A stretch of 64,000 bases of DNA, taken from assembly GCF_030681155.1 (NCBI RefSeq), contig NZ_JAUXXE010000019.1:1-64000 (forward strand), in the 5' to 3' direction. The DNA comes from Phenylobacterium sp. GTDB lineage: Bacteria; Pseudomonadota; Alphaproteobacteria; Caulobacterales; Caulobacteraceae. Below the pieces are notes generated by a model. It saw only the letters and a list, made by a program, of their open reading frames with translations. It had not been told where the DNA came from and did not search any database. This document shows, one piece after another, positions 58,601 through 61,973 of the stretch. A program made the position numbers and the translations under genes. How positions within the stretch are numbered: position 1 is the stretch's first letter; the number at the start of each line of letters is the position of its first letter.

Positions 58601-58626
58601 GGAACCGCGCCGATGGGCTTCTCGTT
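58601..58626 (+). promoter_or_regulatory. Distal EcfG/SigT-type promoter
   Basis: GGAAC (58601-58605) and CGTT (58623-58626) are separated by exactly 17 bases, the layout of general-stress sigma factor EcfG (SigT in Caulobacter). Transcription would start near 58633, about 240 bases before the CBS gene. Confidence 0.55.
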
Positions 58627-58793
58627 TACTCACTGATCGACGAGTGAAAATCGGAGATCACGCCCGATCAAGAGCCAGAAATGGAAAATGATCGGACAAG
58701 AAACCCGGCGGAGCCTCCCACAATCTTGGTGAGACCGTCGGGCTTCGCTGTGTCTGGCTCCCAGATTCCCCCAGTGAAATGTGAAGAAAAGTC

Positions 58794-58819
58794 GGAACGC
58801 GACCTTTCCTGCACTCGTT
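58794..58819 (+). promoter_or_regulatory. Proximal EcfG/SigT-type promoter of the CBS gene
   Basis: GGAAC (58794-58798) and CGTT (58816-58819) are again separated by 17 bases. Transcription would start near 58826, giving a leader of about 47 bases with AGGAG before the ATG at 58873. This is well placed to drive the CBS-domain gene under stress. Confidence 0.75.
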
Positions 58820-58872
58820 TCGACTGCATGCCGGCCATGTCGGCCGCCCATTTCCCAACAGGAGTCTTCGCC

Positions 58873-59310
58873 ATGAGAGTAAGCGATTGCATGCCGCGCG
58901 ACGTCAGGATGGCCAATCCGAACGAAACCCTGCGCGACGCGGCCCAGCTCATGGCGGAACTAGACGCCGGGGTGCTGCCGGTCAGCGACGGCGACCGGCT
59001 GGTGGGCATGATCACCGACCGCGACATCTGCATACGGGCGGTCGCTCAGGGCAAGGGGCCGGACACCAAGGTCAGCGACATCATGAGCCGCGAGGTCCGC
59101 TATTGCTTCGATGACGAGGAAAGCGACGCGGTGCTGCGCAATATGGGCGACATTCAGGTCCGCCGCCTGCCGGTGCTTAACCGCGAGAAGCGCCTGATCG
59201 GCATCGTCTCGCTCGCGGACCTAGCCTCGATCGGCCAAACGGCCCGCGCCGGCGAGGCCTTGGGCGGCATTGTGCGGCCCGGCGGAGAGCACTCGCAGTC
59301 CATTCACTGA
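58873..59310 (+). CDS. Tandem CBS-domain protein, probable stress-regulon member
   Basis: A 145-aa protein of two CBS domains (MRVSDCMPRDVRMANPNETLRDAAQLM...DRLVGMITDRDICIR and KVSDIMSREVRYCFDDEESDAVLRNMGDIQVRRLPVLNREKRLIGIVSLADLA). Such pairs bind adenosine nucleotides such as AMP or ATP, or ppGpp-like ligands, and control partner proteins. I use the ATG at 58873 with AGGAG upstream; the track's 58681 start is rejected. Two EcfG-type promoters upstream suggest expression in the general stress response. It converges on spoT. Confidence 0.92.
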   Translation: MRVSDCMPRDVRMANPNETLRDAAQLMAELDAGVLPVSDGDRLVGMITDRDICIRAVAQGKGPDTKVSDIMSREVRYCFDDEESDAVLRNMGDIQVRRLPVLNREKRLIGIVSLADLASIGQTARAGEALGGIVRPGGEHSQSIH

Positions 59311-59335: not shown

Positions 59336-59356
59336 GCGGGCGCCGAGCGCGCCCGC
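59336..59356. terminator. Hairpin between CBS gene and spoT
   Basis: GCGGGCGC (59336-59343) pairs with GCGCCCGC (59349-59356) around CGAGC in the convergent gap. The right arm reaches the first base of the spoT stop codon. With no T-run, it may be a bidirectional roadblock or a simple GC-rich stem. Confidence 0.45.
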
Positions 59357-61524
59357 TAACCCTTGGCGCGGTCGACCGTCTCGATGCTGGGATTGGCGCG
59401 CAGGGCCGCGGCGATATGGGTGAGGTGCTTGGCGTCCTTCACCTCGACATCGAAATCCACGTCGAAGAAATCCGACTGGCGGCGGTGCATGCGCAGATTG
59501 ACGATATTGCCGCCCGCCTCGCCGATCACCGTGCAGGCCTGACCCAGCACTCCAGGCGCGTTCTTGATGGTGGCGCTCAATTTCGACAGGGTGACCGTGT
59601 TGCGCTCAGCCTCGGGCGTCCACTGCAGGTCGCGCCAGAGTTCCTCGCGATCCTCGAAGTCGGCCAAGGTGGCGCAGTCGATGGTGTGGATGGTCAGGCC
59701 CGTGCCGTCGGGCTCAAGAATGCCAACGATGCGGTCACCGGGGACCGGCGTGCAGCACGTCCCGAAGTTCAGCGAGACGCCAGGGGTCAGCCCGCCGCCG
59801 CGCACATAGAGCCTGGCGCCCTTGCCGCCCTCGATCCGCCGCGTGGCGGTGGCCGCATCGCGGTCGGCTGCGTTGAGGCCGGGGAAAATGACATCGAGCA
59901 CCTGGGTCGGCGAGATCCGTCCGCGGCCAACCGCCTCGAAGAGATCGTCCTCCGTGGCGACCGCGAAGCGCTCCAGCGATGGCTTGAGCAAGACATCCTT
60001 GCGCGCCTTGCCGGCCCGCTCGAAAGTCTGATCGACCGTCGCGCGGCCAAGCCGAAGGAACTCTTCCTTCTCCGTCTGGCGGATATGGCGACGGATCGCC
60101 GAACGCGCCCGCCCCGTCACCGTCAGGGAGCGCCAATCGGGCGGCACGACAGGCTTGGTCCCACGGATGACCTCGACAACGTCGCCGTTCTGAAGAGCCG
60201 TCCGTAAGGGCTTGAGTTCGCCGTTGATTTTTACGCCGATGCAGGTGTCCCCGACATCGGTGTGAACCGCATATGCGAAGTCCAGCGGCATGCCGCCGCG
60301 CGGCAGGCTGACCAGCTTGCCCTTGGGCGTGAAGACGAACACCTGATCGAGATACATCTCGAGCTTGGCGTGCTCGACCAGTTCCTCGACATCCCCGCCG
60401 TGCTCCAGCACCTGGACCAGGTGGCGCAAATTGACCAGCGGGTCGCGGCCGCCCTCGGCGGCCTGGGCCTCGGCGTCGAAGCCGTAGGACTTGTCTTTGT
60501 AGCGCCAGTGGGCGGCGACCCCGTCCTCGGCGATCCGGTCCATGGTCTCAGTGCGGATCTGCATCTCGATCCGCATCCCGCGCGGACCGACCACGGTGGT
60601 GTGGATCGAGCGGTAGTTGTTCCGCTTGGGCGTGGAAATGTAGTCCTTGAACCGCTCCGGCACGCTGGGCCAGGCGCGATGGATGACGCCCAGGGCCTGG
60701 TAGCAATCAGCCTCGGTGTCGACGATCACCCGGAAAGCGAAGATGTCGGACAACTGGGAGAAGCCGATCGATTTGCGCTGCAGCTTGCGCCAGATCGAAT
60801 AGGGGTTCTTTTCACGGCCGAAGACACGGGCCGACAGGCCGGCCGCCTCGAGACGGCTGGCGATTTCACCCGACACCACGGCCACCGCCCCGCCCTGCTC
60901 GACGCGCAGGGCTTCCAATCGGCGACCAATCGCATCGCGCGCCACTGGGTTCAGGTGCTCGAAGGCGAGCTCCTCGAGCTCCGAACAGATCCGATGACAG
61001 CCGATCGACCGCGCCAGCGGGGCGTAGATGTCTAGGGTTTCGCGGGCGATCCGCTCCCGCTTGGCGGGGCTCTTGATGTAGTGGAGCGTCCGCATGTTGT
61101 GCAGACGGTCGGCCAGCTTGACCATCAGGACGCGCACGTCCTTGGAGATGGCCAGGATGAACTTGCGAAGGTTCTCGGCCTGCTTGGTGTGTTCGCTGTT
61201 GAGCTCGAGCTTGGTGAGCTTGGTCACGCCCTCAACCAGCTCGGTGATCTCGGCGCCGAACAGGCCGCGGATATCCTCCGGCGTAACCGGCGTATCCTCG
61301 ATCACGTCATGCAGCAAAGCCGTGACGATGGTGGCGGTGTCCAACCGATAGTCGGTCAGGATGCCCGCCACCTCGATGGGGTGCGCGAAATAGGGGTCGC
61401 CCGAAGCGCGCTTCTGACTGCCGTGCATACGCATGGCGTAGACATAGGCGCGGTTCAGGATCGCTTCGTCGGCGGTGGGGTCGTACGAGCGGACCTTTTC
61501 GATCAGCTCGTACTGACGAAGCAT
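59356..61524 (-). CDS. spoT: Bifunctional (p)ppGpp synthetase/hydrolase (RelA/SpoT)
   Basis: A 722-aa long RSH enzyme that makes and degrades (p)ppGpp. The HD hydrolase domain has HGSQKRASGDPYFAHPIEVAG and TALLHDVIEDT. The synthetase domain contains RFKDYISTPKRNNYRSIHTTV: RFKD, not the EFDD-type of RelA, marks a bifunctional enzyme, and the G-loop Tyr is present. Then come TGS (FVFTPKGKLVSLPRGGMPLDFAYAVHTDVG), a helical/zinc-finger region (NFGTCCTPVPGDRIVGIL) and a C-terminal ACT domain. It is 89 bases downstream of rpoZ. In Caulobacter relatives the single RSH responds to starvation. Confidence 0.96.
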   Translation of the reverse strand: MLRQYELIEKVRSYDPTADEAILNRAYVYAMRMHGSQKRASGDPYFAHPIEVAGILTDYRLDTATIVTALLHDVIEDTPVTPEDIRGLFGAEITELVEGVTKLTKLELNSEHTKQAENLRKFILAISKDVRVLMVKLADRLHNMRTLHYIKSPAKRERIARETLDIYAPLARSIGCHRICSELEELAFEHLNPVARDAIGRRLEALRVEQGGAVAVVSGEIASRLEAAGLSARVFGREKNPYSIWRKLQRKSIGFSQLSDIFAFRVIVDTEADCYQALGVIHRAWPSVPERFKDYISTPKRNNYRSIHTTVVGPRGMRIEMQIRTETMDRIAEDGVAAHWRYKDKSYGFDAEAQAAEGGRDPLVNLRHLVQVLEHGGDVEELVEHAKLEMYLDQVFVFTPKGKLVSLPRGGMPLDFAYAVHTDVGDTCIGVKINGELKPLRTALQNGDVVEVIRGTKPVVPPDWRSLTVTGRARSAIRRHIRQTEKEEFLRLGRATVDQTFERAGKARKDVLLKPSLERFAVATEDDLFEAVGRGRISPTQVLDVIFPGLNAADRDAATATRRIEGGKGARLYVRGGGLTPGVSLNFGTCCTPVPGDRIVGILEPDGTGLTIHTIDCATLADFEDREELWRDLQWTPEAERNTVTLSKLSATIKNAPGVLGQACTVIGEAGGNIVNLRMHRRQSDFFDVDFDVEVKDAKHLTHIAAALRANPSIETVDRAKG

Positions 61525-61613: not shown

Positions 61614-61973
61614 TCAGTACCGCTCCTCCTGGCCACCGTCGCGGTCGCTTTGCAGGGCGCGAACCAGTTCCAGCTCACTCATCTGCATGTGGGTCGGGTC
61701 GGCCAGCAGGGCGAGGGTTTCGGCCTCTTCCTCGGCTTCCGAGCGTTCGTCAACGCGTTGCAGGGTCCCGATCAGGTTCTCCCGCAGCTCGTCGGCGTCC
61801 ACCACGTCGTCGGCGATTTCACGCAGCGAGACGACGGGGTTCTTGTCGTTGTCGCGATCGACCAGGAGCGGAGCGCCGGCGGAAATGGCGCGGGCGCGAT
61901 GGGCCGCCAGCAGCACGAGGCTGAAGCGGTTGGGGACCTTCTCGACGCAATCTTCGACGGTGACGCGGGCCAT
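61614..61973 (-). CDS. rpoZ: RNA polymerase omega subunit
   Basis: A 119-aa omega subunit that helps RNA polymerase assembly and forms part of ppGpp binding site 1. The core is [58 protein letters not shown], including the N-terminal MARVT of E. coli omega. The C-terminal 45 residues are an acidic extension ([16 protein letters not shown]) longer than in E. coli. It precedes spoT, the classical arrangement. Confidence 0.95.

Follow-up and report, generated by a model that had tools for sequence, protein, structure and literature searches.

A candidate sigma-EcfG-dependent small RNA family and a neighboring CBS-domain gene in Caulobacteraceae

Organization of the locus

We analyzed a 64-kb stretch of Phenylobacterium DNA (the window), in which a 324-base gap precedes the gene for a small protein composed of CBS domains. 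The closest solved structures to this protein are 9z6r and those of Mycobacterium tuberculosis Rv2626c (1xkf and 1y5h). Like the protein in the window, Rv2626c has two CBS domains alone (about 130-145 aa in both), but its host belongs to a different phylum. An in-frame extension of the CBS reading frame up to 58681 (209 aa) was rejected, as this region corresponds to the structured RNA described below and has frame-breaking indels in relatives. The gap contains two elements resembling promoters of sigma-EcfG (SigT, ECF15), hereafter the distal and proximal sites, and a predicted RNA gene lies between them (Table 1).

The same genome encodes PhyR, NepR and EcfG, the core of the general stress response, at C4:151261-153078 (identified with Pfam as PhyR sigma-like, NepR and Sigma70_r2).

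Table 1. Features of the locus (coordinates in the window)
Feature	Position	Strand	Basis or remark
Distal sigma-EcfG-type promoter of the predicted small RNA gene, GGAAC-N17-CGTT	58601-58626	+	Exact match
Predicted small non-coding RNA, about 120 nt	58635-58754	+	Fold, covariation, 28 homologues
RNA hairpin 1, TGATC...GATCA, A-rich loop	58634-58660	+	Compensatory changes
RNA hairpin 2, CCGATCA...TGATCGG with inner CCA/TGG	58664-58695	+	Changes on both sides of pairs
Terminator-like hairpin, GAARCCCGGCGG...CCGTCGGGCTTC, then GCTG	58700-58746	+	Nearly invariant in 21 copies
Proximal sigma-EcfG-type promoter of the CBS gene, GGAAC-N17-CGTT	58794-58819	+	11/11 and 19/29 loci
Shine-Dalgarno sequence of the CBS gene, AGGAG	58860-58864	+	Sequence; leader similar in relatives
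CBS-domain-only protein, 145 aa, two CBS domains	58873-59310	+	Pfam PF00571, over cut-off
spoT	59356-61524	-	Convergent with the CBS gene
rpoZ (omega subunit)	61614-61973	-	PF01192; followed by spoT

Promoter motifs and their conservation

A first-pass annotation of this DNA had described two perfect GGAAC-N17-CGTT elements on the plus strand, 193 bases apart and with the same spacing, and had assigned both to the CBS gene. We found exact matches at both sites, and these are the sole GGAAC-N15..19-CGTT matches in the window. The proximal CGTT precedes the CBS ATG by 53 nt (about 54 in the annotation), with AGGAG in the leader as described. Since about 2.4 chance matches to GGAAC-N15..19-CGTT are expected in a window of this size, a single match is uninformative. 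The occurrence of a pair in one gap is not due to chance, in agreement with the annotation: across 20,000 dinucleotide-shuffled versions of the gap, N16/N17 matches averaged 0.004, and two sites occurred in none of them (0/20,000).

A sigma-EcfG promoter is expected to have a GGAAC -35 element, a spacer of 16-17 nt and a CGTT or NGTT -10 element, and each site has all of these. The consensus in Caulobacter and Rhizobium etli is GGAAC-N16-CGTT, and that of Sphingomonas is GGAAC-N17-20-GTT. In the whole genome, we found 53 exact matches with N16 versus 11 with N17, which is thus the minority spacing. This raw count of 64 showed no excess over a reversed-pattern control (82 matches), and N17 was not enriched. 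Genome-wide enrichment was therefore dropped as support; the motif by itself is no proof, and the case rests on conservation. Many N16 matches lie upstream of genes of the kinds typical of stress regulons, and nine are grouped around the core general stress response locus on contig C4.

The annotation had proposed to examine promoter conservation upstream of orthologues, and the proximal motif proved to be conserved there. All 11 spoT-linked CBS genes have GGAAC-N16/17-[C/G]GTT 76-90 nt before the ATG. Among 29 CBS homologues from across the family (38-100% identity, paralogues possibly among them), 19 have GGAAC-N16/17-NGTT 45-90 nt before the ATG, versus 0.03 in shuffles. The proximal spacing is N16 in most relatives and N17 in the window. 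The motif is absent in the remaining 10 homologues, including all 7 of genus g14. In genus g3, which we take to be Brevundimonas, the CBS homologues L044, L047, L049, L051-L053 and L056 have a proximal GGAAC-N16-GGTT at -58 to -60, which suggests that GGTT may be an accepted -10 element in this genus.

These comparisons support control of the CBS gene by EcfG through the proximal site. Most of the promoter-bearing homologues (16/19) have no spoT within the approximately 1.5 kb examined on each side, so the adjacency of spoT appears to be incidental to this control. The proposed link between the CBS protein and the general stress response therefore stands with regard to the proximal promoter and not with regard to the distal site, which we do not read as a second CBS promoter.

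A conserved RNA structure after the distal site

The 130 bases past the distal promoter fold more stably than their shuffles (z = -4.5), with values of -5.5 and -3.1 in relatives. In a 21-sequence alignment that had been fitted to the structure, double-sided changes occurred in 15 of 33 pairs (85 cells versus 27.6 in shuffles), and the covariation score was 0.309 versus 0.139 in shuffles, while slid controls collapsed; covariation was also evident in a 5-sequence MAFFT alignment. Hairpin 1 shows compensatory changes from A-U to G-C and from C-G to U-A in 8-10 of the 21 sequences, and in hairpin 2 both sides change in 6 of 7 outer and 3 of 3 inner pairs. Strong covariation was seen throughout the hairpins, apart from the nearly invariant terminator stem, whose consensus is GAARCCCGG...CCGGGCTTCGCTG.

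Caulobacter SigT start sites are located about 34-35 nt past the first base of GGAAC; by analogy, the RNA probably begins near 58635. The terminator-like hairpin would place its 3' end at about 58754. As read from the sequence, the U tract following this hairpin is weak in the window copy (GCTGTGTC), so that transcription may continue into the CBS gene.

BLASTN and covariance searches, the latter run with strict filters, detected 28 copies of the RNA in 22 of 390 Caulobacteraceae genomes, a patchy distribution. The hosts belong to Phenylobacterium, Caulobacter (genus g22, taken to be Caulobacter from named records) and Brevundimonas-like genera; named hosts include Phenylobacterium haematophilum DSM 21793, Phenylobacterium sp. 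Root700 and Root1290, and Caulobacter sp. Root655 and AP07. A GGAAC-N15/16/17-NGT[T/C] motif accompanies all 28 copies, with GGAAC 22-24 nt before the modelled RNA. Because the covariance model starts with the final two nucleotides of the -10 element and GGAAC lies outside it, this match is independent of the model, and we regard it as the decisive test. The two weakest covariance hits, found later (L121 and L122), had no GGAAC promoter and were treated as background.

The genomic context of the RNA varies. Half of the copies (14/28) are not beside spoT, including a second copy in the host genome (contig C73, 3931-4052 or 3931-4076, minus strand; loci L070/L090) that has its own GGAAC-N17-CGTT. 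This paralogue has a divergent thiolase gene on one side and, on the other, a small lipoprotein gene with GGAAC-N16-AGTT. At three other loci (L076-L078), the promoter-RNA unit is flanked by an amidohydrolase gene and spoT, and a CBS gene is missing. Six relatives (L079-L084) carry a diverged tandem copy that precedes the main RNA by about 170 nt, each with its own GGAAC-N16/17-GGTT and most ending in a canonical U-tract terminator; the window genome has no such tandem copy. Downstream neighbors include the CBS gene, convergent spoT, a small lipoprotein gene and others.

The RNA thus has the properties expected of a trans-encoded small RNA, i.e., a conserved structure, its own promoter and terminator (with a weak U tract in the window) and independence from its neighbors. 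On comparison among genomes, both promoters and the RNA structure are conserved, and the promoter-RNA unit moves without the CBS gene. Since the unit occurs without this gene and at unrelated loci, we regard the distal site as the promoter of a small RNA gene.

Interpretation and relation to known stress RNAs

The conservation described above supports the view that both sites behave as genuine EcfG promoters, and EcfG would be expected to use both. Most likely, they switch on two separate genes, the upstream one a small RNA and the downstream one the CBS-domain protein. If they instead served the CBS gene in series, as the annotation had assumed for the distal site, two stress mRNAs would be made, the longer with a structured leader. 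Both sites do face the CBS gene, and the weak U tract makes some read-through plausible, but we consider this arrangement unlikely: the unit lacks a CBS gene in three genomes and occurs at 14 loci that have no relation to spoT, conservation extends to the RNA and its terminator-like hairpin, the CBS gene is served by a conserved promoter of its own directly upstream, and the extra RNA-like copies in six relatives have GGAAC promoters of their own and mostly clear U-tract terminators. It is very improbable that the structured element acts in cis as a leader of the downstream gene, in the manner of a riboswitch or an attenuator. It is structured, with a terminator-like end and a gene after it in the window, but different genes follow the other copies, the CBS gene's own promoter comes after the element, and no alternative (antiterminator) pairing was apparent. 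The genome-wide counts and the rarity of N17 speak for the motifs being chance matches conserved through close relatedness only. This explanation is hardly credible given the shuffles of the gap, the presence of a promoter at one position in 28/28 RNA copies of three genera, paralogues included, and its retention by 19/29 CBS homologues that are as little as 38% identical.

The position of the RNA also hints, weakly, at a link to (p)ppGpp. In 14 loci of the Phenylobacterium type, the RNA and spoT converge, and in one checked case the spoT stop codon is only about 9 nt away. The RNA could be a stress-induced regulator tied to spoT, tuning spoT mRNA by read-through or base-pairing, but we consider this improbable. 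If true, it would provide an RNA route from the general stress response into (p)ppGpp control. As for the CBS gene, the annotation had pointed to its position right beside spoT, the gene of the (p)ppGpp enzyme. This link has little force, because spoT is a convergent neighbor, is not found near most of the promoter-bearing CBS homologues and does not adjoin half of the RNA copies.

We thus favor, with a probability of roughly 0.85, a model in which the distal promoter makes a trans-acting small RNA of about 120 nt, the proximal promoter makes the CBS mRNA, and EcfG induces both under stress. According to this model, PhyR would sequester NepR under stress, and the EcfG so freed would induce the small RNA and the CBS gene together. 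The RNA, probably a discrete transcript ending at the GAARCCCGG...CCGGGCTTCGCTG hairpin, would act by base-pairing with target mRNAs encoded elsewhere, and the CBS protein may bind an adenine nucleotide.

A sigma-T-dependent small RNA, GsrN (RF01529, CC3552), is known in Caulobacter crescentus (PMC5869019). It shares with the new RNA a size of about 100 nt, a sigma-T/EcfG promoter, a terminal hairpin and occurrence in Caulobacteraceae (PMC5869019), but differs in having a C-rich 5' loop, which is absent in the window RNA, and the new RNA does not match RF01529 in sequence or model. An Rfam scan of the gap gave no match above threshold; with the RF01529 model, neither the window region nor four other RNA copies matched, whereas a true GsrN scored 75 bits. 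This separate GsrN is in the host genome itself (CGCCCCCCCCGACTTGA; C4:149856-149913, minus strand, locus L120), near the PhyR/NepR/EcfG locus, and has a GGTT -10 element and the C-rich 5' loop. Identity of the new RNA with GsrN was thereby ruled out. A first GsrN candidate at C13:265192 was not conserved and was discarded.

Other alphaproteobacterial non-coding RNAs under the control of EcfG-type factors are ReC64 of R. etli, which adjoins the phyR locus (PMC3892343), and the RpoE2-dependent small RNAs of Sinorhizobium meliloti (PMC3892343, PMC6180224). Their hosts belong to another order, and they are set apart from the new RNA by description rather than by sequence. In a literature search whose reach excluded most subscription journals, we found no description of the RNA family, and GsrN was the sole EcfG-dependent small RNA found described in Caulobacteraceae.

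On the best reading of these comparisons, the RNA represents a second sigma-EcfG-dependent small RNA family in Caulobacteraceae, located beside a CBS gene that would also be controlled by EcfG. This family would be structurally unrelated to GsrN and duplicated in several genomes, each copy having its own EcfG promoter. Such a family suggests that the RNA layer of the general stress response in Caulobacteraceae is broader than known, and the proximal promoter would tie a CBS-pair protein to this response across many genera.
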